This document shows positions 7,985-28,997 of a stretch of 43,225 bases of DNA, piece after piece. This stretch comes from Bacteroidaceae bacterium. Lineage in GTDB: Bacteria; Bacteroidota; Bacteroidia; Bacteroidales; Bacteroidaceae. How positions within the stretch are numbered: position 1 is the first letter of the stretch; each line of letters begins with the position of its first letter. A program made the translations under genes and the position numbers. The stretch spans positions 1 through 43,225 of the forward strand of contig JAFUVE010000025.1 in the NCBI GenBank assembly GCA_017483765.1. The letters are read 5' to 3'. Below the pieces are notes generated by a model. That model was not told where the DNA came from. It was given only the letters and a program-made list of their open reading frames with translations, and searched no databases.

Positions 7985-8104
7985 TGGTTGAAAGTTGAGG
8001 TTTTTTAGTTGAGAGAGCTGCGATTGGATGATTCTTCGCGATAATATCGCGAAGCAAACAACAGGCAATGATTTTTTAGTTGAGAGAAGAGGCGGTAGAT
8101 GATA

Positions 8105-8263: not shown

Positions 8264-10141
8264 TTATTGGCCTGCGATGCAGTTGATGATGGCGACAATG
8301 TCGGAGATATCGGTATTTCCGTCTTTGTTGACATCAGACTTGGCGTATTGAGAGGTTCCTGCGATATGGTTGATGACAGCCACGATGTCGGAAATATCCA
8401 CATTACCGTCTTCATTGACATCGGCAGCATAGATTGCGCCAGCCAGCGTGTCTTCTTCCACAATATACTTGCCTCCAGTCTGTGTTGACTTAATGACATA
8501 GAACTTATCGTTGGAGATTCGGGTCACATCCACCGTCTGAGGTGAGCCAGAGTTGGTGGAGAACACAACATTGACATAATAATCATCATCCTTGATATTG
8601 AAAGTCTGACTATACCACTTCTGGCCGTTCACAACTTTCGTTTCGGTAATTTGCTTGCCAGGCCAAACTCCGTTGAGCTGAGAGTCGTTTTCCGAATCCC
8701 ATATATAGAAGTTCAGGCGTGTCCAGTTGAGTTCATCACGCACAAAAATGGTCGCATCGTGTGCCGTTGCTTGCTGTTCTTCTTTCTGAGCGGCTTCCTC
8801 CTCCTTGATTTGCTCAAGGCGGTTGTTCCATTCATCCACAAGCGCATCGGAAATAAAATATCTAAAGTCGGATGCAGAGAGAATCTCGGTAAATCCATCA
8901 GGAGCCTTATATGCGGCCGGTGTTTTTCCGACAACGCAGATAAGCGATCCTTCAGTTCCTTGCGTCTGTACGGCATAATACGAGATATTACTTGCCATTT
9001 GCTGATAGGAACTCTGGTTGTTGATACCCACTAATTTACGAGCGGTAATCATTCGTTTGAGATCTCCTTTTGCCGCAATCCAGTGTTTTAAAAAGACACA
9101 TGGCGTACCCGGCATGGCCAGAAGATATGCGTTCGCCGCCAAAGTGTCCGCCTTGATAGGGTCTTGTTCAGCTCCCGTTCGGCGTTCCGTGTCATGGTTT
9201 TCTACAAATGTGACGGCATATTGTTTATAATAATCATCGAAAATGAGCGGTATTTCTGTAACCTTCACGTCTTCCGCCGCAAGCAGTTTCCAGTTGTTCT
9301 GGTTAATGGCATCACGCATCCTGTAGCGGAACTGGAAATCAAACGCGGCCGACGTTGGAGTTCCTTCCACCTTCGTCCCGTTGATCCAGCTTTTGATGGT
9401 AGTGGTGTTATCCCAACATTCCCCGACAGAGAACTGCGGTTTTACCGTAGCATTATAATCAGCGGTGAAGCTCGAACTATACCCTTTCACCATATCATAT
9501 CTGAACCCCGTATAACCAAGGTCGTTGAGCAAGAAGTCGAGGTATGCCTTCACGCATTTGTTGACATTCTCAGACCTGTGGTCGATGTCTCGTGCCCCAC
9601 TCCATCCTTCTCCCGTGTCGTTGTATGGTGACAGTTCATAACCATTATTATTGGCCCAGGTGAGCGTGGCTCCGCCGTCATCGTTCTTACAGATGTCAGT
9701 AGATTTCATCTGATAGGTCACCCCCTTGTAGGTCTCAGCGGGAAAATCCACCCAGTTGGAAACATTCCCACGGTGATTGATAACAACATCGGCAATCGTA
9801 CCGATTCCGCGTTCCTTGAAAGAGGCAATCATGCTTCTAAGTTCTTTCTCTGAGCCGAAACTGCTTTCCTGCCTGAAATAATAGAGAGGCATATATCCCA
9901 TGTTGTCATGGCTGTCGCAATATCCCGACTGAGGAATCCATACTAAGTCGAAATATCGTGCCAGCTCATCTGCCTGCTTTTCAAGTTTTGTCCATTTCGT
10001 AGCAGCATAGCTGTCCCAGAAGAATCCCTGCAGCATGACACCCTTGTAGTTTGGCTCCCATCCCTGAGCGACTCCAGGCGTATTGTTGATGATAAAGAAT
10101 AATGAGATAATAAGGATGAAATTAATCAGATGTTTTTTCAT
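8264..10141 (-). CDS. Secreted GH13 alpha-amylase with starch-binding module and C-terminal dockerin
   Basis: A 625-residue enzyme expected to hydrolyse internal alpha-1,4 bonds of starch. After a signal peptide (about 1-25, no lipobox cysteine) the GH13 barrel starts at GVMLQGFFWDSY. The catalytic triad is visible: Asp216 (GFRYDMVKG), Glu241 (SVGECWD) and Asp317 (VENHDTERR), with the conserved DVVINHR at 118-124. A coiled E/Q-rich linker (about 440-460) leads to a CBM26-like starch-binding module (about 463-560). Residues 573-625 form a two-repeat dockerin: DVNEDGNVDISDIVAVINHI and DVNKDGNTDISDIVAIINCI. It occupies the susG position but lacks the lipoprotein anchor and the internal CBM58 of SusG. 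The gene lies 67 bp after susF on the same strand, so co-induction by SusR is likely. Confidence 0.93.
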   Translation of the reverse strand: MKKHLINFILIISLFFIINNTPGVAQGWEPNYKGVMLQGFFWDSYAATKWTKLEKQADELARYFDLVWIPQSGYCDSHDNMGYMPLYYFRQESSFGSEKELRSMIASFKERGIGTIADVVINHRGNVSNWVDFPAETYKGVTYQMKSTDICKNDDGGATLTWANNNGYELSPYNDTGEGWSGARDIDHRSENVNKCVKAYLDFLLNDLGYTGFRYDMVKGYSSSFTADYNATVKPQFSVGECWDNTTTIKSWINGTKVEGTPTSAAFDFQFRYRMRDAINQNNWKLLAAEDVKVTEIPLIFDDYYKQYAVTFVENHDTERRTGAEQDPIKADTLAANAYLLAMPGTPCVFLKHWIAAKGDLKRMITARKLVGINNQSSYQQMASNISYYAVQTQGTEGSLICVVGKTPAAYKAPDGFTEILSASDFRYFISDALVDEWNNRLEQIKEEEAAQKEEQQATAHDATIFVRDELNWTRLNFYIWDSENDSQLNGVWPGKQITETKVVNGQKWYSQTFNIKDDDYYVNVVFSTNSGSPQTVDVTRISNDKFYVIKSTQTGGKYIVEEDTLAGAIYAADVNEDGNVDISDIVAVINHIAGTSQYAKSDVNKDGNTDISDIVAIINCIAGQ

Positions 10142-10208: not shown

Positions 10209-11636
10209 CTATTCTACCACACAATAGATATTATCATTGTCCTTACGAGTAGGATAGAGTTTAACAGTGTTGGCATCAATCCAAAGATTACTTCCATCTT
10301 GATACAAGTTGCCGGCCTCACCTCCGAGGTTGAGTGCCCAATCACTGTTCAGGCGGAACTTCCATCCAGCAGCTGTAGCTCCAACGCCGGTAGCCTCAAA
10401 GCAATAATCCTTGGCATTCCATGACATAGCCACGTCGCCTCCCCATCCGTTGAAGTCGCCAATGATTCCCATTGTCTCCACTTTCACAGCATTAAGGGTA
10501 AGTTCTCCAAGGTTGAGTTCAACATAATAGACCGCCTCTCCGGCCTTAGCCTCTATATTGGTGTTTCCTTCAACGAGTCCGAAGTCACCAGTAATAGAAG
10601 AGAATGTGGCACTATTGATTTCATTATCCCAAGATCCAGCTACCCTTTGGAATTTGAACTGGTTGCCCCATCCGTTGGGATCAGCACAATAAACATATCC
10701 AGTGTAAAGTCCTTCATTGTTCTGCAGTGCCAGTCTCTGCTCCGAATTTGTCCATCCATCAGTAGCACCGATGAAATAAACGAAGTCGTCGAAGTTAATA
10801 GCCTCAATCTTGTAAGTGAAATCAAGCATGTTGATTGTCATGCGGTATTTTCCGGCAGTCTCAATCTTAGCAGCCTGAGCATCTACATTGATCAAGTTTC
10901 CTTCAAAACTAGTATCGCCATCAACAGCCGTACCAATGACACCCGGATTAGCCCAGAAATCATCATTGTCGATGTTAGTCTGAGGTATGATTTTCCAGTA
11001 CTGATTGTCGGCTGTGGTCGTAAATACAATCGTGAACACAGGGTCATCATAGACATCCTTATCACTGTGTGAGAACTGCTGCATTCCATCAGCATTCCAT
11101 GCAAGCATGTCGCCGACCAGATAATAAGCAGAAGCGATAGGTGTGGCCTCAGGAGTGACAGTCATCGGAACGTTCACCTTATTCGTATTGACAACGGTTG
11201 ACCCAACTGCAGATGTGAAAAGCTTAGCAAACACACATAGTTCAGCATTCCTTGCATCCGGTCTTTTTCCATAGAACGAAGTGATAATATTCTGAAGATC
11301 AGCCTTAGCCACTTTACCAGAATTAGAAACCGCGATATCGTAAGAAGACAGGGACGGCTCCTCACCTTCCTCGCCTTCAACAGAGAAAAGAATCTGAGCC
11401 ACATACTGACTTAAAAGATAACCGTCTGGCGCGTCAATCGTTAGATCCACCACTTGCAAAGAGTCGTCTTCAACTGAATTGAGGTCAAATGTCAGATTAT
11501 CAATATTTGAAGATGCCGATACGGTCTGCATCTCCTCTTGCTCGTTAGTCTGCGGACTTGCCCAGTCATCGAAATCCTCATTACATGAGGCAAAGAGAGC
11601 CAACGCAGCACTACAAAAAATTAATTTCTTAAACAT
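10209..11636 (-). CDS. susF: SusF-like starch-binding outer-membrane lipoprotein
   Basis: A 475-residue lipoprotein. The signal peptide ends in LFASC with lipidated Cys18, followed by the acidic stretch NEDFDDW that fits a Bacteroidota surface-export signal. An N-terminal SusE/SusF-type beta domain (NIDNLTFDLNSVEDDS) is followed by repeated starch-binding modules of the SusE/F kind, recognisable by YYLVGDM, VYFIGATDGWT and GIIGDFNGWGGD, the W-rich sheets that stack on glucan rings. SusF has no catalytic function; it holds starch at the cell surface. The ATG at 11636 is chosen because the signal peptide begins there; an in-frame start at 11702 would add 22 residues. It lies 72 bp after susE. 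With three modules it is longer than SusE, supporting the SusF name, though E and F are hard to separate. Confidence 0.85.
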   Translation of the reverse strand: MFKKLIFCSAALALFASCNEDFDDWASPQTNEQEEMQTVSASSNIDNLTFDLNSVEDDSLQVVDLTIDAPDGYLLSQYVAQILFSVEGEEGEEPSLSSYDIAVSNSGKVAKADLQNIITSFYGKRPDARNAELCVFAKLFTSAVGSTVVNTNKVNVPMTVTPEATPIASAYYLVGDMLAWNADGMQQFSHSDKDVYDDPVFTIVFTTTADNQYWKIIPQTNIDNDDFWANPGVIGTAVDGDTSFEGNLINVDAQAAKIETAGKYRMTINMLDFTYKIEAINFDDFVYFIGATDGWTNSEQRLALQNNEGLYTGYVYCADPNGWGNQFKFQRVAGSWDNEINSATFSSITGDFGLVEGNTNIEAKAGEAVYYVELNLGELTLNAVKVETMGIIGDFNGWGGDVAMSWNAKDYCFEATGVGATAAGWKFRLNSDWALNLGGEAGNLYQDGSNLWIDANTVKLYPTRKDNDNIYCVVE

Positions 11637-11708
11637 ATCTAAAAATATTTTAACAGGTGTGAGGTTGCAAGGCGGTGAAATCCGTCTTGCAACCACTCTC
11701 ACCTTGAA

Positions 11709-12896
11709 TTATTGTTTTACAATCCTGAACAAACCAAGAAGGTCATTGAAGAATATGTCGTATGTGCCTGTTTCAGCAATATAGAAGTTACCACCAATGC
11801 CTTCACCGAATCCATACCATCCATAGGAGAGTTCGAAGAGACCGCCCCATCCCCAGTTGTTGTCCCAGGAGCCTGTTTCCTTAAATTTAATTTCGTCAGC
11901 CTCGTTGAGTTCGACAGTGAGATACCAGTCATGGTTTTCACCGACGGTAGATACCGGTGTCATTTCGGTGTCTGCCCATCCATTGAAGCTTCCCGAAAGT
12001 GAAATACCATCGAATGTTCTTACTTTTCCCTCAAAAGGAGTGATGGTAGGCTGGTTCGTCTTGGTGTCCAACACAACCTTGTAACATCCGGCTTCTGGAA
12101 CAGAGATATTAGCCGATCCGCCGTCATTGAGTTTAAACTCACCGAAAGCGTCTCCTTGTCCAATCTGAACAGCCCAGTTGTCATCAGGCGATCCACGGAA
12201 CTTGAATCCGTCGGGTGTGAGATAGCCAGCCCATACAATTTCTCCGGTTCCGTCCACCTCGTTGTATGTGCTTTCGTTGCTGAAGTACATCGGCATACAT
12301 CCCGTAGGAACAGTATTAGTCCATGAACCGTCGCCGATACAAGATCCCGTCATATACCAAAGTACAGGATCGGCAGCCACAAGCGACTGGAAGTATGGCT
12401 GTACGACTAACTTAACTATATTGGAATAAATGTATCCGGTGGAATAAGTCTGGGCCGTAACCCTCACAAACACATCCTGTTGTTGCGGCAGTTCGTCCGC
12501 AGAGTTGATTCCCAAGAGTTTAATCAAGTTACGGTTAAGGTCCTCAATGGCTATTGCACCCTTACATTCAGAGACGGGTTCATCCTCCTGAATGTAATTT
12601 GGCACTTCGTTTCCTTCGTCATCCTTTGTTGAGCTGAAATTTTCATCAACAGCATACTGTATATAATAGGTAGTGACCAAAGGCATCCCTCCATAATCGG
12701 GTTGTGACCAGTTTAGGTGAATACTGTCGGTCGATGATTCCAAGTCAATAACAGTCTGTGCCAATGCCGGTGAATTCAAGACAAAAGATTCCGGCATTTT
12801 TAGTGTTGGATTCGAGTCATTATCATCAGAGCAGGATGTCATGCCCATAAATGCTCCTCCAAGAAACAGCACTGATAAAAAATATTTTATTTTCAT
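11709..12896 (-). CDS. susE: SusE-like starch-binding outer-membrane lipoprotein
   Basis: A 395-residue lipoprotein with signal peptide and lipobox (MGMTSC, Cys22) followed by acidic SDDND, as expected for surface export. The N-terminal SusE domain is marked by SFVLNSPALAQTVIDLES and the following HLNWSQPDYGG. The C-terminal half holds two starch-binding modules with WYMTGSCIGDGSW and LSGSFNGWADTEMTPVS motifs. The protein would add starch affinity next to the SusCD transporter. The start at 12896 (MKIKYF) or the in-frame ATG at 12902 are both possible. The gene lies between susD and susF on the same strand. Confidence 0.85.
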   Translation of the reverse strand: MKIKYFLSVLFLGGAFMGMTSCSDDNDSNPTLKMPESFVLNSPALAQTVIDLESSTDSIHLNWSQPDYGGMPLVTTYYIQYAVDENFSSTKDDEGNEVPNYIQEDEPVSECKGAIAIEDLNRNLIKLLGINSADELPQQQDVFVRVTAQTYSTGYIYSNIVKLVVQPYFQSLVAADPVLWYMTGSCIGDGSWTNTVPTGCMPMYFSNESTYNEVDGTGEIVWAGYLTPDGFKFRGSPDDNWAVQIGQGDAFGEFKLNDGGSANISVPEAGCYKVVLDTKTNQPTITPFEGKVRTFDGISLSGSFNGWADTEMTPVSTVGENHDWYLTVELNEADEIKFKETGSWDNNWGWGGLFELSYGWYGFGEGIGGNFYIAETGTYDIFFNDLLGLFRIVKQ

Positions 12897-12949
12897 AATC
12901 ATAAAAGTTTAATTAATCAGACTATCGTATAAGCAAATAACAACAGAGA

Positions 12950-14542
12950 TTAATAGCCTGGGTTCTGTTTAAGATTCGTATTCGTGTCAAGATCGGTGGA
13001 AGGCAGACCATAGACATTGAAATTTGAAGAGAATGATCCTCCGGCAGGAATATTGTTCATGAACTCCCAGAGATACTCAGACTGTCCTCCGAAACGTCCG
13101 AATCTGACGAGATCGGTACGTCTTCTTCCTTCGAACCAGAATTCCCTTGCCCACTCATCAAAGACATCATCAAGCGTGTAGGATGCTTCCTGTGTGGCAT
13201 TGGCACGCTTGCGCAACTCATTGATATATTTGTTGGCTGTTGTGTTCTGCCCATTCTTCCTGATTGAAGCCTCAGCATAAGTCAGATAAGCCTCGGCCAC
13301 ACGCAGTAGCGGGAGGTCGGTGTCCACGAAGTTAACCGCACTGGCAGTTTTGCCGTCGGATCGTATGTTTCTGAACTTCACACAAGCAAAACCTTCATCC
13401 GAGGCCTCCGTAGTGACATACTGTGCAAATCCCTTACTATAGAAAAGCGCACGGTCGTCGCCGGCTGCCTTAATCATGACGTCAAGGTTATCTGTGTCGG
13501 GGGCGGGGGTGGTGCCAAAGAACTTCTCAACGAGCTTACCCTTTACTCTTGCACACTTACCCCAACTGTTGTTCGTGCCAGAAGGAAGTGCATCACTCAT
13601 CTCTGAAGAGTAGTTGGAGAACACCAAGAAATTCGTCGCGTCATAACTCTGTGTCTGAATGCCATCCTGAAGAACAGGGAACACATCCTCATACTGAGCT
13701 CCATTCTCATTGTTGTCGGCAAGGAAGAGCATCTGATATGCTGAGAATCCATTCTTCGCATCAGTGTTCAGATGATAATAAGAACTGTTAATCACCTTTT
13801 CAGCATACTCCATGGCCTCCTGCCACTTTGGCTGGCCCGTATAGACCTCGGCGTTCAGATATAATCTGGCAAGCAGTAAGTTTGCAGCGGCCTTGTCAAC
13901 TCTTCCATAGACGTTCTTACCGTCATCGACAAGATTCTCCAAAGAAGCCTTCAACTCGCTCTCGCAGAACTCAAACAGTTGCTGTCTGTTGTAGTAAGGA
14001 GCCAAGTCTGCAGAAATAGAAGTTGTGAGCGGTCCAGCACCATAGAGATCCATCACATACATGTAGTTGAGCGCACGTATCAAGCGGACTTCAGCAGACT
14101 TGGTGGCATCGCTGACCTGCTGTAAATATGAATTACAGAGCGTAATCGTGAAATAGAGCCTATAGTACATTGCATAGGAGAATGTGTTGCTTGCCGCAAA
14201 ACCATGATGCAGCAATTCCGGTACTCCTGCGTCGGACCAAACCCATCCGGCCTCGTCGGAGGTGAACTCATTAAGCGACCATGCCATGCGGTAAAATCCA
14301 GACATACCCTCATTGGCAAAGATTTCTGTAGGAATATCTCCGTTACCGGAACCGCCATTCTGTCCTGTAAGCGCAAAACTAGCATAAATTTTATTAAAGA
14401 GTGCGTCTTCATCCAGCACCTGAGTTGTCTGTGGATTAATCGGCGTGACATCAAGGTCTCCTGTGCAAGAAAGAGAAACACCTCCCATCGTAAGCGATAA
14501 AAGTGCCACAGACAATATTGATTTATTCATATTAAATTTCAT
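12950..14542 (-). CDS. susD: SusD/RagB starch-binding surface lipoprotein
   Basis: A 530-residue lipoprotein that forms the lid of the SusC transporter. The signal peptide ends SLSC (Cys26), followed by TGDLDVTPINPQTTQ, typical of SusD. TPR-like helical segments follow, and the C-terminal SusD motifs LRVAEAYLTYAEA, INELRKRAN and WFEGRRRTDLVRFGRF are clear. The protein ends at the LKQNPGY motif. It lies 41 bp after susC, the fixed SusC-then-SusD order of the family. The start could also be the ATG at 14530 or 14551; 14542 gives a normal signal peptide. Aromatic residues on the glycan-facing side cannot be assigned with confidence by eye. Confidence 0.93.
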   Translation of the reverse strand: MKFNMNKSILSVALLSLTMGGVSLSCTGDLDVTPINPQTTQVLDEDALFNKIYASFALTGQNGGSGNGDIPTEIFANEGMSGFYRMAWSLNEFTSDEAGWVWSDAGVPELLHHGFAASNTFSYAMYYRLYFTITLCNSYLQQVSDATKSAEVRLIRALNYMYVMDLYGAGPLTTSISADLAPYYNRQQLFEFCESELKASLENLVDDGKNVYGRVDKAAANLLLARLYLNAEVYTGQPKWQEAMEYAEKVINSSYYHLNTDAKNGFSAYQMLFLADNNENGAQYEDVFPVLQDGIQTQSYDATNFLVFSNYSSEMSDALPSGTNNSWGKCARVKGKLVEKFFGTTPAPDTDNLDVMIKAAGDDRALFYSKGFAQYVTTEASDEGFACVKFRNIRSDGKTASAVNFVDTDLPLLRVAEAYLTYAEASIRKNGQNTTANKYINELRKRANATQEASYTLDDVFDEWAREFWFEGRRRTDLVRFGRFGGQSEYLWEFMNNIPAGGSFSSNFNVYGLPSTDLDTNTNLKQNPGY

Positions 14543-14583
14543 AATAAACATATTTAATATCTAAATTACATAATGGTTAGCAA

Positions 14584-17500
14584 TCAGAAATTAAGGCTGA
14601 TTCCTAAGATACCAGTGAAAGGACGCGGATAAATGGCGCTGTCGTATCCACCGCTGACTTCAGGGTCGATACCTTTATACTTCGTGATTGTGAAGACATT
14701 CTGCGCTGTTGCATAAGCACGTCCGCTGATATTCCACTTCGCCAGCTTATTGAAAGAATATCCAAGAGTGATATTGTCGCATTTGAGGAATGATGCATTC
14801 TGTATGAAATAGTCAGACTGTGAGGAGATATTACTGTTGTATTGCCAGTTCTTATCAAGCTGATATTCCACAACATTATGCCAAGTGTTGTTGCTGTAAA
14901 CGTATGCAGGGGAGACGTTAGCTCTGTCGTTAGCCTCAACCGAATTATACATATAGTTGTTGATGCTTGCTCTCAGAGAGAAGCTGAAGTCCCATTTCTT
15001 CCAGATGAGTTTGGAGGAGAGGCCCATCAGAACATCAGCGTCTGCTTTCTTATAGAAATACTTATCGTTTTCTGTCAACACGCCATCTCCGTCTCTATCC
15101 ACGAATTCACCTTCGATAGGCTGTCCGGCCTGATTATATACCTGCTGGTAAACCCAGAAAGCACTTGCCGGCTGATTCTCGGCATAAGCCATTACTGCAC
15201 CTGCACCACCAGCGCCGATTGCCGCATAGGCATGTCCGATAGGTTTTCCGTCGGTGGACACCAGATGGTCGATTTTGTTTTTGTTCCATGTGAAGTTATA
15301 CCCAAGCTCCCATCTGAGATCTTTAGTCTGGATCACACGGTAAGTAAGCTGGGTCTCAATACCTGTATTGTGAAGCGAACCGATATTACTCATGATACGA
15401 GTAGAGAAATTAGTACCTGCAGCAACGGCAACAGTATTGAGCAAGTCCTTCGTCTTTCTATAGTAGTAGTCAACACTTGCAACAAATCGGTTGTTGGCGA
15501 AGCCAAGATCAACTCCAACGTTATAAGTGGTTGTCTTTTCCCAAGTCAAATCGGGATTATATCCTTCTGGGCGATAAGTAATTCCTGTACCGCTTATCGG
15601 ATAATAAGCACCTGCTGTATTGATCGTAAAGTTCGGCAGATACATATAATCTCCGATGCCTTCCTGCTGTCCTGTGATACCCCATCCCAACCTGAGCTTG
15701 GCGTCAGATATCACCTCACTGTCTTTCAGGAATGCCTCATCATTGATTTTCCATGCCAATGCAGCTGACGGGAACAATCCCCATCTGTTATCCTTCGAGA
15801 AACGTGAAGATCCATCATTACGGAGGGTAAACGTGAACAAATAACGGCTCAGTAAAGAGTAGTTGAGTCTTCCGAACCAGCTGACGAGATAATTCTCTGT
15901 TTTGTAGAGAGAGTTTTTCGTTTCAAAATAGTCTGGATTGACCAACTCTCCCGGATGCGTGTTATTTGTCTTGGGATAGTACACCGGATAACTGTAATCG
16001 GATTTATAGTGGAAATGCTGCCACTCATAACCCGCCATCACGTCAAGGTTATGCGCTTCATTAAATTCTTTCAGATACTGAGCATAGAGGGAGAGAGACA
16101 TATTATATTTGTCAGACTCATTCCAGCCTTTACTTCCATAATAAATGTTTGTTGAATAGTCGTATGGCTTCACCGACTTGTCAGAGTGTCCATGTCCGGT
16201 GTCGAGTCCTCCGTTCAAATGGATATGCAAATCCTCAAATCCATGTATTTTATAGTCCATCTCAACATTCCCGAGGAAGTCACGGCTCTTACCGATGTTC
16301 TTCTGATTAAGCAGGGCAGCCACCGGGTTGTCGGCATTAAGTCCGGAATAAGAATACTGCCATTCACTGTCGTCAAAATCTGCCGTGACAGGCCACTGCC
16401 AGAATCCTCCATACTGTTGGGAAGCCAGACTGCCGGTTTTATCATAAACAGGCTTTGTAGGGTCAGCGTAGATAGCTTTTCCAACTGCACTGGTGTTGGC
16501 ATAAGAATAACGGGAGAACATCAGCTTGGCATTCATATTCACCTTGAGATGGTCATCGAATAAAGAAGGAGAAAGATTCACACTTGCCGTATAACGGTTG
16601 AAGTTAGAAGTTTTGAGTGTACCATCCTGATGAGTGTAACCCAGAGAAACTCGGTATGGCATATTCTTGATGCCTCCTGCAACCGTCACATTATGGTCTG
16701 TGTTCCAGGCTGTACGATAGATTTCCTTTTGCCAGTCGGTGTTGGCAAAACGATGCGTGCCATCAGCATCATAATAGCCGAGGTTTTGATATTGGCTGGA
16801 AGCCTTCCAGCCCTCATCATTGTCTTTGTATCCAAACAAGTTCTGAGTGAACTTCTGATACCGGGATGATGAAAGCACATCCAGTTTTTTCGTGTTCACA
16901 CTGAAGCTGACATTTCCATTGTAAGAAACTCTTGGTTTGGAATTAGCAAGTCCTTTCTTTGTAGTGATGATGATGACACCGTTAGAAGCCCTGCTACCAT
17001 AGATAGCTGTTGCCGACGCATCTTTAAGAACAGTAAAGCTCTCGATATCGGCCGGGTTAATCATAGTCAGGGGGTTACCCTGTCCTTCGTTTTCATGGGC
17101 ATCAAGAGCCAGTCCGTCAATGACGATGAGAGGATTGTTAGATGCGTTGAGCGACGATCCTCCACGAATTCGGATAGTGGCTCCTCCACCTGGCGTACCG
17201 TCACCAGGAATGACACTGACACCCGCGATTTTACCTTGAATCATGTCCTGAGGATTGGTTTGCAGACCATGATTCATCTCATCAGGCCTGATAGCGATGA
17301 CAGACCCTGTGAGGTCATTCTTCTTGACCGTGGCATATCCGATAACTACGGTCTCTTCCAACATTTTGACATCCTCCTCCATAATCACAGTCATTGTGGG
17401 CTGTGCTGGCAATTCCTGGGTAACAAATCCCATGTAAGAGAATACCAATGTTGCTCCTTTTGGCACTGTAAGGGTGAAATTTCCTTCAAGGTCGGTCATA

Positions 17501-17667
17501 CACCCTTTGGAAGTACCTTTCTGCTGAACAGTGCCCATCATGACAGGCTCACCATAAGTGTCTTTCACACTTCCTTTCACGGTTATGTCCTGAGCAAGCA
17601 CATTGAGCGACACGAAGATTCCGACGGCAAATGCCATCAGAAATCTGAAGTAATGCTTTTCGTTCAT
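14584..17667 (-). CDS. susC: SusC/RagA TonB-linked outer-membrane transporter
   Basis: A 1,027-residue protein with a signal peptide (about 1-25, ending NVLAQ). A carboxypeptidase-like regulatory domain (ITVKGSVKDTYGEPVMMGTV) comes next, then the TonB box region (MLEETVVIGYATVKKNDLTG). The plug domain carries the signature IRIRGGSSLNASNNPLIVID and ATAIYGSRASNGVIIITTKKG. The rest is a 22-strand-type barrel ending RPFTGILGISLNF. With SusD it imports malto-oligosaccharides into the periplasm using TonB energy. The length and the RGGSSLNASNNPL motif are standard for SusC. It lies 298 bp after susB; the gap holds stem-loops and repeats, so susCDEF and the amylase may be processed or regulated separately from susAB. 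Confidence 0.95.
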   Translation of the reverse strand: MNEKHYFRFLMAFAVGIFVSLNVLAQDITVKGSVKDTYGEPVMMGTVQQKGTSKGCMTDLEGNFTLTVPKGATLVFSYMGFVTQELPAQPTMTVIMEEDVKMLEETVVIGYATVKKNDLTGSVIAIRPDEMNHGLQTNPQDMIQGKIAGVSVIPGDGTPGGGATIRIRGGSSLNASNNPLIVIDGLALDAHENEGQGNPLTMINPADIESFTVLKDASATAIYGSRASNGVIIITTKKGLANSKPRVSYNGNVSFSVNTKKLDVLSSSRYQKFTQNLFGYKDNDEGWKASSQYQNLGYYDADGTHRFANTDWQKEIYRTAWNTDHNVTVAGGIKNMPYRVSLGYTHQDGTLKTSNFNRYTASVNLSPSLFDDHLKVNMNAKLMFSRYSYANTSAVGKAIYADPTKPVYDKTGSLASQQYGGFWQWPVTADFDDSEWQYSYSGLNADNPVAALLNQKNIGKSRDFLGNVEMDYKIHGFEDLHIHLNGGLDTGHGHSDKSVKPYDYSTNIYYGSKGWNESDKYNMSLSLYAQYLKEFNEAHNLDVMAGYEWQHFHYKSDYSYPVYYPKTNNTHPGELVNPDYFETKNSLYKTENYLVSWFGRLNYSLLSRYLFTFTLRNDGSSRFSKDNRWGLFPSAALAWKINDEAFLKDSEVISDAKLRLGWGITGQQEGIGDYMYLPNFTINTAGAYYPISGTGITYRPEGYNPDLTWEKTTTYNVGVDLGFANNRFVASVDYYYRKTKDLLNTVAVAAGTNFSTRIMSNIGSLHNTGIETQLTYRVIQTKDLRWELGYNFTWNKNKIDHLVSTDGKPIGHAYAAIGAGGAGAVMAYAENQPASAFWVYQQVYNQAGQPIEGEFVDRDGDGVLTENDKYFYKKADADVLMGLSSKLIWKKWDFSFSLRASINNYMYNSVEANDRANVSPAYVYSNNTWHNVVEYQLDKNWQYNSNISSQSDYFIQNASFLKCDNITLGYSFNKLAKWNISGRAYATAQNVFTITKYKGIDPEVSGGYDSAIYPRPFTGILGISLNF

Positions 17668-17965: not shown

Positions 17966-20179
<2,214 letters not shown>

Positions 20180-20241: not shown

Positions 20242-22095
20242 TTAAAAATCGAGAATAATGACCTCCTTAGGTCTCAAAACGAGCGTTTGATTGAGGTTTA
20301 CCGTCTGATGATTGATGATATTGAGTGCCGACTTGGCTGGCAGCACCTCCTGATAAGGCTCAAGCTGGATTGTCGCGGAGTCTTTGGTTCCGTTGATGAG
20401 CACGGTGACGGTCTTGCCCTTGTAAGTCCGTGCATAGACATAGACTCCGTCGCGTACATGGAAATGAGTCAGCTTGCCATAATGCACCGTCTCGTTTGTC
20501 TTTCTCCACTGCAGCAGGTTTCGTGTGGTATTGTAATACCAGTTCTGCAAGTCGGTCCTGCCTTCAGGGGAGAATGCGTCGTTGACATCGCCTGGCCATC
20601 CGCCTGGGAAGTTCTGCCTCAGCGCGCCGTCTCCTTTCGACTTGTTGGCTGCCATGCCGACTTCGTTGCCATAATAGAGTTGCGGGATACCACGCAAAGT
20701 CAGCAAGAGGGAGAGCGCCTGCTTATATCGAGTGGTGTCGTTGGCCATGACCTCGTTTTTCTGAAAACGGTCGGTGTCGTGGTTGTCGAGGAAAGTGAGC
20801 AGATGGTTGGTGTCGGCAAAGACACCGTCCTGTCCGAGATATTCATAAAGTCGTGCAAATCCATGATCCCATGCGTCCGTGTTTTCGTCGCACACATAAT
20901 TGAGCAGCGACATGAGCGGGAAGTCCATGACCGACTTCAGTTTGGAATTGCGGCTGGCCAGTTTGCTGTCTTTCTGCCATACGGACACACCCACGTTGTT
21001 GTTGATCCATGCCTCGCCTACAATGTTGAACCCCGGGAATTCTTTATCGATACGTTCGCACCACTCCACCATGGCGTCGAAATCACAGTAGGGATAGGTG
21101 TCCTGGCGGATGCCGTCGATCTGCGCATATTCAATCCACCAAATGCTGGTCTGAATGAGATAGTCTCTGACAAGACGGTTCTTCTGGTTCCAGTCGGGCA
21201 TGGTCTTGACAAACCATCCGTCCACGGTGCGTGTGCGGTCGAACTGCGATGCGTTGACATCAGCCACAGCTGCTGTCCTGTAGCTGCTCTGCACATATTG
21301 TCCGTCGAAATTGAACCAGTCCTTCTGCGGCATGTCGGTGAAGAGCGGGTTGAAACTGCCGCAGTGGTTGAACACCAGGTCTTTGATGACCTTGATGCCT
21401 CTTTGGTGAGCCTGGCTGACGAAATTGCGGTAATCCTCATTCGTGCCGAACCGAGGGTCCACATTATAATAATTGGTGATGGCATATCCGTGATAAGACT
21501 CCACCTCCATGTCGTTCTCGAGCACTGGTGTGGGCCAGATGACCGTGATGCCGAGCTCAGCAAGATAGTCGAGGCGGTCGGTTATGCCTTTCAGGTCGCC
21601 ACCATGGCGGGCCATAGGTATGTTGCTGTCGCAGACCGTCTCGCGCATGCCTTTCACTACGTCGTTCTCCCTCGTGCCGTTGGCGAAACGGTCGGGCATG
21701 AGCAGGTAAACCACGTCGGATGCGTCGAAGGACTTACGGTTGAAAGGCACCTTTTGCTTCAATTCATAGTCGAAGGCAGCTTTACGCTTTCCATTTGTCA
21801 GCTTCACCTGAAACTGCTGAGGTCCGGCACCCTTTGTATCAATATAAAGAATCAAGTAATTGGGGTTTTCCACTTTGACAACCTCGTCGATGCTGAGGCT
21901 GGCAGCGTTTTCCAGTGAAGGAGTCATGTCGGAGATGTTGTCACCATGAATAAGGATTTGGAAAACGTGGTTTTCCATTCCGCTGTACCAGCAAAGTGGA
22001 TGAACGAAATCAATGACTTCATTTTTCTTAGCCTTTGCAGTGGTAGCAGTCAGGATGGAAACCACAACAATCATGAAAAAACTTATACGTCGCAT
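20242..22095 (-). CDS. susA: GH13 neopullulanase/cyclomaltodextrinase-type amylase (SusA)
   Basis: A 617-residue periplasmic enzyme that cuts alpha-1,4 bonds in imported malto-oligosaccharides and pullulan. Signal peptide at about 1-21. An N-terminal beta domain (WYSGMENHVFQILIHG) typical of cyclomaltodextrinases is followed by the GH13 barrel. Visible motifs are YLLMPDRFANG, HGGDLKGITDRLDYLAELGI, DLVFNHCG, Asp332 (DGIRQDTYPY), Glu361 (IVGEAWIN) and Asp440 (LDNHDTDRF). The length equals that known for B. thetaiotaomicron SusA. It is the first gene of the minus-strand run, divergent from susR across 411 bp that holds both promoters. The 22096-22180 stretch right upstream contains AGTTTAAAGTTTAATG reiterations. 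Confidence 0.95.
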   Translation of the reverse strand: MRRISFFMIVVVSILTATTAKAKKNEVIDFVHPLCWYSGMENHVFQILIHGDNISDMTPSLENAASLSIDEVVKVENPNYLILYIDTKGAGPQQFQVKLTNGKRKAAFDYELKQKVPFNRKSFDASDVVYLLMPDRFANGTRENDVVKGMRETVCDSNIPMARHGGDLKGITDRLDYLAELGITVIWPTPVLENDMEVESYHGYAITNYYNVDPRFGTNEDYRNFVSQAHQRGIKVIKDLVFNHCGSFNPLFTDMPQKDWFNFDGQYVQSSYRTAAVADVNASQFDRTRTVDGWFVKTMPDWNQKNRLVRDYLIQTSIWWIEYAQIDGIRQDTYPYCDFDAMVEWCERIDKEFPGFNIVGEAWINNNVGVSVWQKDSKLASRNSKLKSVMDFPLMSLLNYVCDENTDAWDHGFARLYEYLGQDGVFADTNHLLTFLDNHDTDRFQKNEVMANDTTRYKQALSLLLTLRGIPQLYYGNEVGMAANKSKGDGALRQNFPGGWPGDVNDAFSPEGRTDLQNWYYNTTRNLLQWRKTNETVHYGKLTHFHVRDGVYVYARTYKGKTVTVLINGTKDSATIQLEPYQEVLPAKSALNIINHQTVNLNQTLVLRPKEVIILDF

Positions 22096-22432: not shown

Positions 22433-22464
22433 TTTGGTATTTATGTAAAAAAATCGTAAATTTG
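22433..22464 (+). promoter_or_regulatory. susR promoter
   Basis: TTTG at 22433-22436 and TAAATTTG at 22457-22464 are separated by 20 bp, an exact Bacteroidota -33/-7 pair. The susR ATG follows 43 bp after the -7 element. Confidence 0.6.
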
Positions 22465-22506
22465 ACGGCAATTAATTATAGAATGATAAAAAAGGGCGAA
22501 AAGGCT

Positions 22507-24111
22507 ATGAATTTCAAACGAAAAATACTGACGATTTCAACGGTTATTTTATGCATGAGTTCGTTCGCTCAGACCGATGTGTTCGAAAAGGAAAAGCTAC
22601 AGGAGGCACTGGATTCGCTGGACGAAGTCATCGAGCACAAGGAGGAGTATGCGAGGGCATGGCAGGCAACGACCGACAGGATAAAGATTTCAGCACTCCA
22701 CCAAAAGGGGATGGACCGTGTGAGCGCATACTGGGAGGTGATGGACCGTTACAGACGCGTGCAGACAGACTCAGCCCAGCATTACCTGAACACGCTGAGA
22801 CAGTTGGCAGAGGTGCAGGAAGACAGGGAGCTGGCCGCTAACCTACAAATCAGCCAGGCTGACATCTATGGTGTGAGCGGACTGTACATGTCGGCCATCG
22901 AGCTGCTGGAAAAAGTAGAGCCCCAAGGATTAGGAAACGATTTGCAGGCTCAATACTACCACACGCTACGCACCATCTACGGCTGGCTGGGCGATTACGC
23001 CTCAAGCAGCAATCTGAAAGAGAAATACGTTATGATAACAGCACAGTACCGAGACTCCATCCTCCGCTACGACCACGACAGCATCAGCAGGCATATCGTT
23101 TTGGCTGACAAATATTTGATAAACGGTGACACAGATCACGCACTGGCATTATGCAAAAAAGACCTCACAGCAGCAACTTCTGCCAACAAGCGGTATATCT
23201 ACTCCAACATGGCGGAGGCATACCGGCAAAACGACGACAACGCGCGATATGAATATTACCTGGCACTGACTTCGATTGACGACCTAAGGAGCGGGATACG
23301 GGAATACATGGCATTGCCCAAGCTGGCTCTGTCATGCTATGAGCATGGAGACTACGAGCGCGCCTACCGATACCTCACATGCACGATGGAAGACGCCAGC
23401 GCATGCAAAGCACGCCTACGTGCCGTGGAGTCGAGCCGGTTCTTCCCCATCATCGACAAGGCATACAAGAAGCAGGAACAGAGCCAGCGAAGGACAGAGC
23501 GTCTATTAACCTATGCCCTTGTCGGTTTCGCGTTGCTCCTGGCCGGCCTGCTGCTCATGCTGCGCAAGCAAAACCAAAAACTGACCAATGCCCGGCAGAG
23601 CCTTCTGGAAGCCAACGAGCATCTCCAGGATTCGAACGCGGCACTGGAGAAGACCGACAAGGTGAAGGAGGAATATATAGCCTTTTATCTGGACAAATGC
23701 CGTGGATACCTGGGCGCACTTCAGAAATACCGTCGCGAACTGCTGAAACTGGCCAAAGGACGACAACATGAGGAACTGCTGAAACGGCTGAACTCATCGG
23801 AGGTGATGGACGAGGAGCAGCAACGGTTCTACAAGGACTTCGACGAGGCGTTCCTCAATATCCACCCGCAGTTTGTGGAGCGGTTCAACGCACTGCTGGA
23901 GGACGACAAGCAAATCAAGGTGAAACGGGGTGAGCTGATGACGACGGAACTGCGTATCTTCGCACTCATCCGTCTTGGTGTCAGCGACACGGCGGCGATT
24001 GCACATTTCCTGAATTACTCCACTGCCACGGTCTATAACTACCGGAGCCGCATCCGCAACAGCTCGAAATACGGAAAGGAAGAGTTTGAGGAGAAAGTCA
24101 TAGGACTTTGA
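22507..24111 (+). CDS. susR: SusR-type membrane-spanning transcriptional regulator of the starch locus
   Basis: A 534-residue protein. It has an N-terminal signal sequence (MNFKRKILTISTVILCMSSFAQ), a helical TPR-like periplasmic sensor (about 25-325) and one transmembrane helix (about 333-353, YALVGFALLLAGLLLML). A cytoplasmic coiled coil (about 355-395) follows, then a C-terminal domain with a LuxR-like helix-turn-helix (TELRIFALIRLGVSDTAAIAHFLNYSTATVYNYRSRIRN). This matches the SusR/DUF6377 layout: the outer half senses maltose-size sugars and the inner half activates sus promoters. The gene is divergent from susA, as in known sus loci. The ATG at 22507 is preferred; 22483 (MIKKGEKAMNFK) is an in-frame alternative. 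Confidence 0.9.
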   Translation: MNFKRKILTISTVILCMSSFAQTDVFEKEKLQEALDSLDEVIEHKEEYARAWQATTDRIKISALHQKGMDRVSAYWEVMDRYRRVQTDSAQHYLNTLRQLAEVQEDRELAANLQISQADIYGVSGLYMSAIELLEKVEPQGLGNDLQAQYYHTLRTIYGWLGDYASSSNLKEKYVMITAQYRDSILRYDHDSISRHIVLADKYLINGDTDHALALCKKDLTAATSANKRYIYSNMAEAYRQNDDNARYEYYLALTSIDDLRSGIREYMALPKLALSCYEHGDYERAYRYLTCTMEDASACKARLRAVESSRFFPIIDKAYKKQEQSQRRTERLLTYALVGFALLLAGLLLMLRKQNQKLTNARQSLLEANEHLQDSNAALEKTDKVKEEYIAFYLDKCRGYLGALQKYRRELLKLAKGRQHEELLKRLNSSEVMDEEQQRFYKDFDEAFLNIHPQFVERFNALLEDDKQIKVKRGELMTTELRIFALIRLGVSDTAAIAHFLNYSTATVYNYRSRIRNSSKYGKEEFEEKVIGL

Positions 24112-24648: not shown

Positions 24649-27600
24649 ATGAAAAAAGGACTACTATTCTCACTGTTGTTCAGTGGAATGGTGCTTGGAG
24701 CCAGTGCACAGACCATCACGGCTGACCTGACCTCGAAGCTGAAAAATGCCGATTTCACACAAGGCAGCCCGGTAACAAGTACCGTCTTCACCTATGACTA
24801 CAACATGACGGACGACGGAGCTGGTACTGGAGGCACCCAACTGTTCGGTATGCAGCCTGTGGAAGGATGGACTGCCAGCAGCCCATCTGACAACATCAAG
24901 GTGATGCAAAGCTCAGAAGACAAAGAACACCCCCGCGAGGACGGTGCTAACGCCAAAGCAGCCGGACTTTTCGCCTACGAGGACGACACCCAGGAAACTG
25001 TCAACACCATCGGATTGGGTGGTAATTATTATGCCCCTTACATCAACGACGGAATCACAACGACTACCAACGCAATGGGTATCGTAGCCGTTTGGGGATC
25101 GAATCCAACTTACTATCAGGAAGTGACACTGGAAGCCGGTGCCTACATGATTGAGGTGACGCTCTACAACGCAGCCGGAACAGGAACCATCAAGAACTTG
25201 TTTGGATTTGATGGCGGAGAAGGCAAAACCTTCCTTTCCAGCAATGACGCATACGATGTAGGCGCATGGACCACAGACCAAATCACATTCCGTCTGACAG
25301 AAGCCACAACAGGTAAAGTCCAGCTTGGCTTCAGCCACAGCGGTGGTTCCGGTTCAGCCCCCCACCTGTTTGTCGACAATGTGAAGCTGTATCAGATTGA
25401 CGAGCAGGAGTTGATTCAGGCAGAGATCGACGAGGCAAAGGAAGAATTGCTCAACCTCATCAACCTCGGTAAGAGCTACGGTGTTGACACCAGCGCTTCT
25501 CAGCAGGTGTACAACAACGCCAGCGCAACCATGGAGCAGGTGCAGGCAGCCATCGAAAAGCAGAAGGAAATCAACGCTACTGGTCTGACAGACCTCTCTG
25601 AGTTCTTCTTCAACAACCCTCACTTCGACGAGGACGAGCCGCTTATCGGAGGTATTTGCACTTACGACTACGACTGCGAGAAGAACGGGATTCCATTGAC
25701 CAACTACAGTATGCTTCCGCTCAGCGGATGGGAGCGCACAAAGACCGACAACGGATGTGCAGCCGGTGTTTACGGCGTAGGCACAGGCGCATTCCTGGGT
25801 GGTGCAGACTTCATCGTGCCTACCACGATGAGCGACGGCTCAACCGAAGGAAAGGTGCTCGGATTCGTGACTTGCTGGACCATGACTGTACAGTACAAGC
25901 AGGCATGTACAGTTCCTGCTGGACAGTATACGCTGAAGCTCAACTACTACAACGCAGGAGGTACAACCGCCATCACGAAGAACCTTATCGGATTTATCGC
26001 TGACGACGGCACAGAATACCTCGGAACGAACACAACCTTCCCTGTAGGCAAATGGACAAGCGAGGAAGTGACATTCACCCTCGCAGAGGAGACCAGCGGC
26101 TACTTCACGATGGGCTACAGCTCACCTAACGTAGGGTCAGCCAACGTGCCTCACTTCTTCACCGATGGTATCTCGCTGACTTATGTTGGCAACATCGACC
26201 CGGCCGTATTCGCCCTTAAAGCATCTATCTCCACAGGAAACAAGCTGCTTGAGGAATATTTCCAGCAGGATCTGAAAGACCAGCTAAGAACAGCTGTTGA
26301 GGCTGGTGAAGAGCTTCTGGAGAGCGGCGACGATTCAGATGCCATGACCCAGGCCGCCCTTGCGATCAACGCGATGACGGGCGACGTGAATGCCAGCATC
26401 AACGCCTACAAGAAACTCAAAGATTTCTTCGACGGCGAGTTTAATGACGTTTACGCAGAATACGAAGGAACCGACCTTGCGAAAAAGCTCGACGACATGA
26501 GCGACGGCATCATGCTCCAGCTGGAAGAAGAGGCAACATGGAGCGTGGAAGACATTGACGGTTGCATCGCTTCTCTGCCTGTTCTCATCAAGGAGTATGT
26601 ACAGGAGCAGTTCGACAAGGCCGTTGCCACTGGCCAGAGCGATGGCGACATCAACATCTCTATCCTCTACGGAGACATCCTTGGAGCTACCTACAGCACA
26701 TCTGCCCTTCAGGGAGCCAACGTGGTAGACAAGCAGTGGAACTACGGCGACGCTGGCAACTTCAAGACACAGTACGGCACAATGGAGGTATGGAACCAGA
26801 GCCCGTTCACGGTAAGCCAGACGATGAAAGAGATGCCGGCAGGTACCTACACGCTCAGAACACGCGCGTTCTACCGCACAGCCGACCAGGTTACAAACTA
26901 CTCAGAATACAATAACTCTCCGGTTGACTACGCTTACGTATTCGCAGGAAACCTGAAGACTCCTTTGTCCAATATCGCTCTGATTGCATCAGCAGACGCT
27001 GAGGAGTTTTCAAACAACTCTGCCGTTGGCGACAACAGCGACTTGTTCGTGCCAAACAGCCAGCAGGCCGCACACGACGTATTCGAGAACGTGAAGAAAA
27101 ACTACGACGAAATCACGCTGAAGAGCGTCCAGACTGTACTGACCAGCAAAGGCGACCTCACCTTCGGTGTGAAAGCCGACCAGATGCAGGGCAACGCATG
27201 GGTGGTATGGTACACCTTCGAGCTGTACTACAACCCTGTGGTTGACGAGAACCTTGTGGACGAAGAACTTGCAGCCGTAATCCAGGAAGTGGAGAATTAC
27301 ATGGCTGAGAACAGCGGCAACATGAGCACCGTGGCCAGCAACTCCGTGAACGACGAGGTTGACAAGGCCAAGGGCGTACAAAGCAGCGGCACCAATGAGG
27401 AGAAGAGCGCAGCCGTCACTTCACTGAAAGAAAAACTGGCTGACGCAAAGGCCAACGTAGACGCATACACAGCCTTCGGCGACGCATACAACAACCTAAG
27501 CAACGTGCTTCCTGAGTATTCAGATTCTCCATATGCCCAGACCGCAGAAGACCTGCTGAGCAACACCGATCCCGACAACATGACAACTGAAGAGCTTAAG

Positions 27601-28287
27601 GCAGCTACTGAAGAGCTCAACAAGGCAGCAGCCCGCCTGAAACTTCCTGACTACTCTAATCCTCCAGTTGACTTCACTCAGGTGATCACCAACAACAGCT
27701 TCGAGAACGGCGACCTGACCGGCTGGACAGCATACGCAGGAAGCGACACCGCAGCAAAGGAAAGCGGTGAGGAAGGCGGCACCTACTATATTTCCAATGT
27801 AGACGGCATCTATGTGTTCAACACATGGAACGGCAGTGCTCCAGCAGATGGTTTCTATGTAAGCCAGACATTGTATTGCCTGCCAGCAGGTACTTACACC
27901 CTTCAGGCACTTCTTGCCTCCGACCAGGGCAACGTGATTACACTCAGCGCAGCCGGCGCAAGCCAGGCATTCACGATGGAGAACGATAAGACCATCGCAA
28001 CTGACGGCAGCCTGACCTTCTCTATCAGCGAGGAGACCGACGTGGAAATCAAGGCATCGAGCCCGACTTGGTTCAAGGCCGACAATTTCCGTCTGGCGTA
28101 CACAAGCAAGGATACCTTCAAGAAGGGCGACGTGAACCAGGATAAGAAGATAGACATCTCCGACATCGTGGCCATCATCAACCAGATAGCCGGCACCGCC
28201 ACTTACGCCAACGCCGACGTGAACGGCGACACGAAGGTGGACATCTCCGACATCGTGGCTGTGATCAACATCATCGCAGAACAATAA
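24649..28287 (+). CDS. Large secreted multidomain protein with four carbohydrate-binding-like modules and a C-terminal dockerin
   Basis: A 1,212-residue protein with a signal peptide (MKKGLLFSLLFSGMVLGASAQ) and no lipobox. I see four beta-sandwich modules that look like galactose-binding or CBM4/9-type folds: about 25-250, 320-510, 665-865 and 1005-1145. They share a pattern of N-terminal ...F..G.L/GW, V(P/A)AGxYxLxxxxYN and a C-terminal FxxDNxxL strand. They are separated by acidic helical, FIVAR-like linkers (about 250-315, 515-660, 865-1000). Residues about 1157-1212 form a dockerin with DVNQDKKIDISDIVAIINQI and DVNGDTKVDISDIVAVINII. No catalytic domain is recognised, so a binding or scaffold-attached role is likelier than hydrolysis. 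The gene begins 537 bp after susR in the same direction, has its own promoter, and is followed by a terminator and the cohesin-like gene. Confidence 0.8.
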   Translation: MKKGLLFSLLFSGMVLGASAQTITADLTSKLKNADFTQGSPVTSTVFTYDYNMTDDGAGTGGTQLFGMQPVEGWTASSPSDNIKVMQSSEDKEHPREDGANAKAAGLFAYEDDTQETVNTIGLGGNYYAPYINDGITTTTNAMGIVAVWGSNPTYYQEVTLEAGAYMIEVTLYNAAGTGTIKNLFGFDGGEGKTFLSSNDAYDVGAWTTDQITFRLTEATTGKVQLGFSHSGGSGSAPHLFVDNVKLYQIDEQELIQAEIDEAKEELLNLINLGKSYGVDTSASQQVYNNASATMEQVQAAIEKQKEINATGLTDLSEFFFNNPHFDEDEPLIGGICTYDYDCEKNGIPLTNYSMLPLSGWERTKTDNGCAAGVYGVGTGAFLGGADFIVPTTMSDGSTEGKVLGFVTCWTMTVQYKQACTVPAGQYTLKLNYYNAGGTTAITKNLIGFIADDGTEYLGTNTTFPVGKWTSEEVTFTLAEETSGYFTMGYSSPNVGSANVPHFFTDGISLTYVGNIDPAVFALKASISTGNKLLEEYFQQDLKDQLRTAVEAGEELLESGDDSDAMTQAALAINAMTGDVNASINAYKKLKDFFDGEFNDVYAEYEGTDLAKKLDDMSDGIMLQLEEEATWSVEDIDGCIASLPVLIKEYVQEQFDKAVATGQSDGDINISILYGDILGATYSTSALQGANVVDKQWNYGDAGNFKTQYGTMEVWNQSPFTVSQTMKEMPAGTYTLRTRAFYRTADQVTNYSEYNNSPVDYAYVFAGNLKTPLSNIALIASADAEEFSNNSAVGDNSDLFVPNSQQAAHDVFENVKKNYDEITLKSVQTVLTSKGDLTFGVKADQMQGNAWVVWYTFELYYNPVVDENLVDEELAAVIQEVENYMAENSGNMSTVASNSVNDEVDKAKGVQSSGTNEEKSAAVTSLKEKLADAKANVDAYTAFGDAYNNLSNVLPEYSDSPYAQTAEDLLSNTDPDNMTTEELKAATEELNKAAARLKLPDYSNPPVDFTQVITNNSFENGDLTGWTAYAGSDTAAKESGEEGGTYYISNVDGIYVFNTWNGSAPADGFYVSQTLYCLPAGTYTLQALLASDQGNVITLSAAGASQAFTMENDKTIATDGSLTFSISEETDVEIKASSPTWFKADNFRLAYTSKDTFKKGDVNQDKKIDISDIVAIINQIAGTATYANADVNGDTKVDISDIVAVINIIAEQ

Positions 28288-28299
28288 TCCGACACACAA

Positions 28300-28332
28300 A
28301 ATCTGTCTGCGGCCATGTGCCGCAGACAGATT
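28300..28332 (+). terminator. Terminator between the dockerin and cohesin-like genes
   Basis: A perfect 14-bp stem (28300-28313 with 28319-28332, loop CATGT) lies 12 bp after the stop and precedes a T-rich stretch. It may end the first transcript or reduce read-through into the next gene. Confidence 0.8.
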
Positions 28333-28400
28333 CTTTCTTTCCTCTCCTTTTTAGAACGACAGTGATAACACCTTATATATAATCTTTAAAACCTACAATT

Positions 28401-28997
28401 ATGAGAAAGAAACTGTTATTTTTTGCTTTCGCTCTGATTGCCTCCCTTACAATGCAGGCACAAGAGATCAAGGTCGTTCCCGGTGAGATTTTCACCTTAG
28501 ACATCAGTATGGACAACGAAGAAGAAGTATGCGCATGGCAAGCCACCGTGGTATTGCCAGAAGGCATCGAGTTTGCCCGTAAAGGCGGAGATTATGGCAT
28601 CAAGCTCTCCGAGCGCCACCCCACCCGCTATTCACTTCAAGTGTTCCGCAGCACAGAAAAAAGCAACGAGTACACCATCATCGCCTACAACACGAGTCTG
28701 AATCCCTTGAAAGGAAACAGCGGCACATTGGCGACACTGCGACTCCGCGCATCTGAAAGCTACAGCGGCGAGTCTATGATTCAGGTGATTAACCAAAGCC
28801 AGTCGACCACCAAAGCCAAGAGCCTGAAAGTGAGCGACAAGTCGCACACAATTGTATCAGATGCCACAGCGATTGAGACCATCAACGCCGATGCTCTGAA
28901 AGGCAAAGAGGTTTTTAACTTAAGCGGTCAGCGAGTAACGAAGCCCACATCGCGCTTCGTCTACATCGTTGACGGCAAGAAAGTGTTTATAAAATAA
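28401..28997 (+). CDS. Small secreted protein with a cohesin-like domain and a T9SS-like C-terminal segment
   Basis: A 198-residue protein with a signal peptide of about 20 residues. Residues about 22-150 show the type I cohesin pattern: an EIKVVPGEIFTLDISMDN opening strand pair, VCAWQATVVLPEGIEFA (position of the jelly-roll LPeGv strand), a YTIIAYNTSLNPLKGNSGTL segment (the usual gNsG-L turn) and TLRLRASESYSGESMIQVIN. The last 35 residues (ALKGKEVFNLSGQRV and FVYIVDGKKVFIK) resemble the short C-terminal segment common in secreted Prevotella proteins and related to type IX sorting signals. A cohesin would bind dockerins such as those of the upstream 1,212-residue protein and the amylase. The cohesin call rests on pattern reading only; another Ig-like secreted domain is possible. 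Confidence 0.55.
   Translation: MRKKLLFFAFALIASLTMQAQEIKVVPGEIFTLDISMDNEEEVCAWQATVVLPEGIEFARKGGDYGIKLSERHPTRYSLQVFRSTEKSNEYTIIAYNTSLNPLKGNSGTLATLRLRASESYSGESMIQVINQSQSTTKAKSLKVSDKSHTIVSDATAIETINADALKGKEVFNLSGQRVTKPTSRFVYIVDGKKVFIK

Follow-up and report, generated by a model that had tools for sequence, protein, structure and literature searches.

What does a dockerin do at the end of a secreted enzyme in a Gram-negative bacterium? The question is raised by contig JAFUVE010000025.1 of a Bacteroidaceae bacterium, analyzed here over its full 43,225 nucleotides (the window) as contig C77 of a Prevotella-like draft genome (3.13 Mb, 69.9% complete). Next to a starch utilization (Sus) locus, the window encodes two secreted proteins that end in dockerins, an amylase and a 1,212-residue protein, and, just after the latter, a secreted protein of 198 residues. 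The original prediction was that this small protein resembles a cohesin and could hold the other two at the cell surface in a hybrid of Sus system and amylosome. Our comparisons span 61 genomes, of which the source genome is G000 and a subset belongs to the same genus. We consider it probable that the 198-residue protein is a single-cohesin surface adaptor, routed by the type IX secretion system (T9SS), which docks dockerin-bearing clients and provides them with a sorting signal in trans. The features concerned are as follows.

28401..28997, plus strand: 198-residue secreted protein with signal peptide, one predicted divergent cohesin and a T9SS-type tail
28461..28823, plus strand: putative cohesin module (mature residues 1-121; VIA-align rows cover model residues 1-121)
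28836..28994, plus strand: putative shortened T9SS type A sorting tail (..VFNLSGQRV..VYIVDGKKVFIK), from a local tail hidden Markov model (HMM) and the tail profile
24649..28287, plus strand: 1,212-residue secreted multidomain protein with C-terminal dockerin, without tail
28123..28275, plus strand: type I dockerin of the 1,212-residue protein
8264..10141, minus strand: GH13 amylase with CBM26 and C-terminal dockerin
8279..8425, minus strand: type I dockerin of the amylase, at the site of a T9SS-type tail in homologues

The 198-residue protein and its tail

The predicted structure of the 198-residue protein has the cohesin beta-sandwich fold, as judged by VIA-align re-alignment of the list returned by Foldseek. 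By sequence, cohesin identity emerges solely through a family profile that matches cohesin chains: the protein gave no match to Pfam Cohesin (PF00963) at E<=1, and Pfam, NCBIfam and phmmer searches with it alone found no cohesin. Since the Pfam-recognized C82 cohesin is itself part of the family profile (A5), the strong match of that profile to contig C82 is by construction. An independent sequence link to the C82 cohesin is provided by a match of the 198-residue protein by itself (E 0.0012). The model and the profile together indicate that the protein holds a divergent cohesin, which bears out the cohesin-like character first proposed for this gene product. From its sequence it is a single cohesin ending in a T9SS-type tail and not a multi-cohesin scaffoldin, and all five cohesin matches in the source genome fall in separate open reading frames (ORFs), one each, in an assembly that is 69.9% complete. 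A full-length orthologue (at least 61%) occurs in only three of the 61 genomes (G000, G012 and G005). The C82 cohesin itself comes first in a 2,816-residue frame whose C-terminal end is a common-class dockerin (loci L091 and L092); the gene ahead of this frame carries a divergent dockerin.

Most of the 25 source-genome matches of the 198-residue protein cover its last ~45 residues and are found where other ORFs, large for the most part, end. Built from 31 of these C-termini, profile A8 matches the C-terminal domains (CTDs) of gingipains (7pq4, 5hfs, 5ag9 and 5ag8; E 7e-4 to 6e-3), and its best match is 4kca, a 692-residue arabinanase chain (E 2e-12). At E<=0.1, TIGR04183 was found in 8 of the 31 tails and Por_Secre_tail (PF18962) in six, with one Por_Secre_tail match above cut-off, in lyase G003_C274 (35.1 bits vs 27). 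The window tail scores 57.1 bits with the local tail HMM, whose training set contains this same tail and drew in part on tail labels given by eye to PL11 proteins and amylases. By profile, the tail is probably homologous to T9SS CTDs. Consistent with a T9SS route, SprA is present in all 13 genus genomes examined, and the PorU sortase was found at 989.7 bits in the source genome, the sole genome tested for it.

The tail could instead be some other C-terminal element, leaving the cohesin periplasmic or released. Its length of ~45 residues, compared with 75 positions in the Pfam model, would fit this explanation, as would the failure of the window copy on its own to match any family. We consider it unlikely, given the match of the tail profile to gingipain CTD structures and the above-cut-off Por_Secre_tail match at the end of the homologous lyase. 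Moreover, in the available text of PMC4804311 the T9SS export signal of a gingipain is mapped to its final 22 residues, so even a short tail may be enough.

Gene pairs and co-occurrence

The pairing of cohesin with dockerin extends far beyond this locus. The cohesin family is found in 19 and Dockerin_1 in 31 of the 61 genomes, and the cohesin is present in 11/11 genomes with at least three dockerin matches vs 8/50 genomes with fewer (Fisher 1.8e-7). Cohesin loci were chosen by cohesin matches alone (in G039 not every place was included) and gave 60 unique cohesin ORFs, 13 of them truncated where a contig or stretch stops, 15 with a dockerin of their own and 32 complete without one. We scored a pair when the ORF directly ahead, at most 250 bases away and in the same orientation, was a dockerin ORF. 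By this rule, 27 of the 32 complete cohesin ORFs without their own dockerin directly follow a dockerin ORF, compared with one of 40 complete tailed non-cohesin ORFs used as a control. In 23 of the 27 pairs the cohesin is tailed and its dockerin partner tailless. The window pair is the plainest form of this arrangement and recurs on contig C5 of the source genome and in loci L080 and L081.

A shuffled, calcium-stabilized C-terminal cap that does not bind cohesin would also account for the dockerin, with the adjacency due to common descent of one cassette. The gene pairs are indeed related to one another, and the interaction of cohesin with dockerin is itself deduced. This explanation seems improbable to us in view of the co-occurrence across the 61 genomes and of the adjacency in 27/32 cases, which include genomes with a single dockerin match.

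Dockerins also differ in class. For G002 and G004 we read 30 of the 62 dockerin matches. Most of the scattered dockerins there belong to a sister class (VDISDVV..VN.IL), as do the dockerin carried by a 249-residue cohesin protein at G002 C56 and the dockerin that immediately precedes the G004 C24 cohesin. Tailed proteins with a cohesin and a dockerin of a different, divergent class were seen at L120 (G000 C45) and at L256-L258 (G002). Such divergent dockerins on or beside cohesin-bearing proteins recall the split between enzyme and scaffoldin dockerins in cellulosomes.

Dockerins across the source genome

Both window dockerins match PF00404 with two calcium-loop repeats (36.5 and 33.7 bits vs a cut-off of 22.9), and the source genome as a whole has 86 Dockerin_1 matches, which fall in 82 ORFs apart from one match (C71) without an ORF found. 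At least one repeat of a strict D(I/V)SD(I/V)V class is present in 79 of the 82 ORFs and two repeats in 70, and the repeat ends at most 25 residues from the C-terminus in 64. The three ORFs outside the strict class lie on contigs C45, C82 and C52; the C45 ORF also bears a cohesin and the C82 ORF precedes a cohesin gene. At the position preceding IN, 66 of the 70 two-repeat dockerins combine a V in one repeat with an I in the other, three have VV and one has II (Fisher 4e-15), as if both positions pack together. A different placement was observed at L105, L118, L130 and L146, where the dockerin lies near the N-terminus, just past the signal peptide, and three of the four proteins end in a similar RPV motif.

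To judge from a Pfam scan of 81 of the 82 ORFs, in which the families named here are among the 25 commonest of each half, the clients listed include RGL11 lyases, GH5, GH43, GH53, GH127, GH106 and pectate lyase, as well as C10 and M6 peptidases, a nuclease and BspA-type leucine-rich repeat (LRR) proteins. The 198-residue cohesin might still serve solely the amylase and the 1,212-residue protein of its locus as a starch-specific amylosome, and in both the window and L081 the pair does stand beside a GH13 gene and a regulator. We regard this as unlikely: most of the 82 ORFs have a common dockerin class, a second dockerin-cohesin pair exists on contig C5, and the clients, with their pectin lyases, peptidases and LRR proteins, are not confined to starch-active proteins. 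Thus the dockerins, the cohesin and their pairing as originally predicted have held up, and the proposed genome search turned up many more dockerins and further cohesins, but we have dropped the starch-specific assembly because of the genome-wide dockerin count. The T9SS-type tail of the cohesin and the position of dockerins at the site of a tail in homologous enzymes were no part of that prediction.

A signal-peptide-like start, defined by a simple script rule, was found in 72 dockerin ORFs, only one of which has a lipobox-like motif and one a tail. Tails occur in 8/66 other secreted-looking ORFs of the same dockerin-centered stretches (Fisher p 0.014), but the contrast is weak, since spurious ORFs are also among those counted by the script.

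Dockerin and tail in homologous enzymes

We compared the C-termini of two enzyme families, amylases and PL11 proteins, with tail labels set by eye. Amylase matches (E<=1e-50) occur in 12 of the 61 genomes. Three end in a dockerin (G000, G012 and G005), eight have a tail-like end and one (G011) is unreadable. The tail-like ends belong to proteins 66-73% identical (G002, G003, G004 and G006) or 39-57% identical, the latter partial matches (G017, G027, G029 and G034). When the seven genus orthologues are aligned, they have common sequence up to one place and then continue as either dockerin or tail. The genomes with a dockerin-ended amylase are the only ones with a full-length orthologue of the 198-residue protein, and their Dockerin_1 matches in the 61-genome scan number 85 (G000), 69 (G012) and 89 (G005).

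The same alternation is seen among 63 PL11 rhamnogalacturonan lyase ORFs of the genus, of which six were set aside at contig ends or for want of a readable end. The 57 labeled lyases end in a tail (35), a dockerin (12) or neither (10). For 11 of the 12 dockerin lyases the best tailed match has 53-64% identity, over ~1,500 residues in several; for the fragment G011_C353 it has 42%. On the PL11 tree the dockerin label needs five changes without this contig-end fragment, four of them forced by starred branches, and six with it, five of them forced; this is a quick tree with some long branches, on which changes are counted in either direction and some may involve the 'neither' class. Dockerin and tail therefore alternate in both enzyme families. 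Their exchange between homologous enzymes suggests that they do the same job.

Proposed mechanism

Clients start with a signal peptide and almost never have a lipobox or a tail, and in the families tested a dockerin stands where relatives have a tail; the dockerin would therefore act like a T9SS sorting signal in trans. A client with a signal peptide would enter the periplasm. The tail would serve as the T9SS ticket that routes the 198-residue protein to the cell surface, and its cohesin would bind the dockerins of the adjoining 1,212-residue protein, of the amylase and probably of many of the ~80 further dockerin proteins that the genome encodes. The cohesin-client pair would end on the surface with the cohesin as anchor, whether docking takes place before export (co-export) or after it.

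In the co-export form, clients would dock to tailed cohesins while still in the periplasm, and both would cross the SprA translocon together as a folded complex; to this we give a little less than an even chance. If true, one reusable adaptor would carry dozens of enzymes whose own sorting tails have been lost. Alternatively, the tailed cohesins may provide surface anchoring only, catching clients that have crossed the outer membrane by other means, a possibility that we hold more tentatively. It fits most of the adaptor reading and opposes just the co-export form. Many dockerins with few cohesins would place the genome in the category of Ruminococcus albus and R. bromii (available text of PMC6118326), and a Cloacimonadota CTD has been read as fixing a cohesin scaffoldin to the surface (PMC8542988, likewise in part). 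The clients, however, show no other export signal (lipobox-like in 1/72), and it is precisely the homologues' export signal whose place the dockerin takes.

Several observations weigh against the adaptor reading as a whole. We infer cohesin-dockerin binding, T9SS dependence, export, localization and anchoring from sequence and predicted structure, and only one of five structure models reached usable confidence. On its own, the window tail is matched by no model of NCBIfam or Pfam, TIGR04183 and PF18962 included. Five of the 32 cohesin ORFs are unpaired (G006 C40, G029 C100, G031 C39, G032 C36 and G032 C1); at G032 C36 there is no same-strand ORF of 120 residues and at G032 C1 a different ORF lies ahead. 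Five of the 27 pairs have weak partner matches of 16-25 bits (G032 C16, C44, C52 and C56, and G022 C19), the dockerin partner is also tailed in two (G000 C45 and G026 C10), and tailed partners stand beside some open-ended cohesin ORFs as well. The conserved repeat is not C-terminal in 18 of the 82 dockerin ORFs. Finally, 86 dockerin vs 5 cohesin matches, in an assembly 69.9% complete, make for an odd stoichiometry.

Other genes of the window

The Sus locus on the minus strand comprises SusC, SusD, SusE, SusF, GH97 and GH13 genes plus the dockerin-ended GH13-CBM26 amylase. On the plus strand, genes for a DUF6377 protein, the 1,212-residue dockerin protein and the 198-residue cohesin protein follow one another.

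6620..8200, minus strand: major facilitator superfamily-type sugar transporter, downstream of the amylase (label by reading the sequence)
10209..11702, minus strand: SusF-like outer-membrane protein
11709..12902, minus strand: SusE-like protein
12950..14551, minus strand: SusD
14584..17667, minus strand: SusC (TonB-dependent receptor)
17966..20152, minus strand: GH97 protein (SusB-like)
20242..22095, minus strand: GH13 cyclomaltodextrinase-like protein (SusA-like)
22462..24111, plus strand: DUF6377 protein, probable regulator (putative function)

The N-terminal part of the 1,212-residue protein (24712-26202) consists of two related modules, ~31% identical, with nothing above cut-off in Pfam. 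No fold was found for this protein, the profile giving one weak match to a dockerin chain (E 0.079); a match of its repeat module to 8pjs was 27 positions long and was disbelieved. An ORF at 93-1469 has a long repeat ahead of a part that reads as pseudouridine synthase-like. Near relatives of the 198-residue gene occur in two named records, a Prevotellaceae metagenome-assembled genome (MAG) and the Bacteroidaceae MAG Tb.RUG.277, whose RUG prefix presumably points to the rumen.

Comparison with known systems

The closest precedent is Candidatus Stygibacter (Cloacimonadota), for which the available text of PMC8542988 describes signal-peptide enzymes with C-terminal dockerins, an amylase homologue and a gingipain-like peptidase among them. 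It also describes a cohesin protein and, with reference to a T9SS review, states that a C-terminal domain attaches this protein to the cell surface. A CTD-anchored cohesin is therefore not new as an idea, having been inferred there. That system belongs to another phylum and has one 3,755-residue scaffoldin with tandem cohesins and carbohydrate-binding modules; single-cohesin gene pairs, dockerin-for-tail exchange and export in trans are not described in that text. Ruminococcus albus likewise has many dockerins and very few cohesins, and its lone cohesin is described as a likely anchor (PMC6118326, in part), but its envelope and secretion route are different, and in our genomes the dockerin alternates with a sorting tail.

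Tailed carbohydrate-active enzymes (CAZymes) and cellulases of a rumen Bacteroidota member are exported by T9SS, with no cohesins or dockerins reported in that organism in the available text (PMC5831590). Homologues of the present clients look of the same kind, but there the tail is on the enzyme and here on a separate cohesin. Dockerins of rumen Bacteroidota are also known, including GH13 dockerins in polysaccharide utilization loci (PULs) of the moose rumen (Svartstrom 2017 as cited in PMC5742341; PMC7480376; PMC6071333), and their role is called not yet defined (PMC7480376). As far as these texts go, such dockerins, like ours, occur on GH13 and other Bacteroidota proteins in or near PULs, there without a partner or role. 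In the portions available of the literature on dockerins and type IX secretion we did not find a mostly single-cohesin family of Bacteroidota, the dockerin gene pair or the dockerin-for-tail exchange, though a cow-rumen cohesin study (Bensoussan 2017, cited in PMC5742341) may hold relatives.

The new point is that homologous enzymes differ by having a dockerin in exchange for a tail. A tailed, divergent cohesin family, invisible to Pfam, offers the dockerins a partner, may explain their role in rumen Bacteroidota and makes that question testable. In hitchhiker or piggyback transport, as known for the twin-arginine (Tat) route and the peroxisome, a signal-less protein travels with a signal-bearing partner (PMC9251779); the available text does not describe this for T9SS, and the present case would differ in having a dedicated, reusable adaptor pair. 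As in the cellulosomes and amylosomes of Clostridium, Ruminococcus flavefaciens and R. bromii, type I dockerins stand at the C-termini of secreted enzymes and the partner has a predicted cohesin fold. Unlike those systems, the cell is Gram-negative, the source genome has only single-cohesin ORFs, anchoring is apparently by a T9SS tail and the clients extend beyond polysaccharide enzymes. If the adaptor reading is true, two usually separate themes would be joined in a modular display of proteins on Bacteroidota cells.

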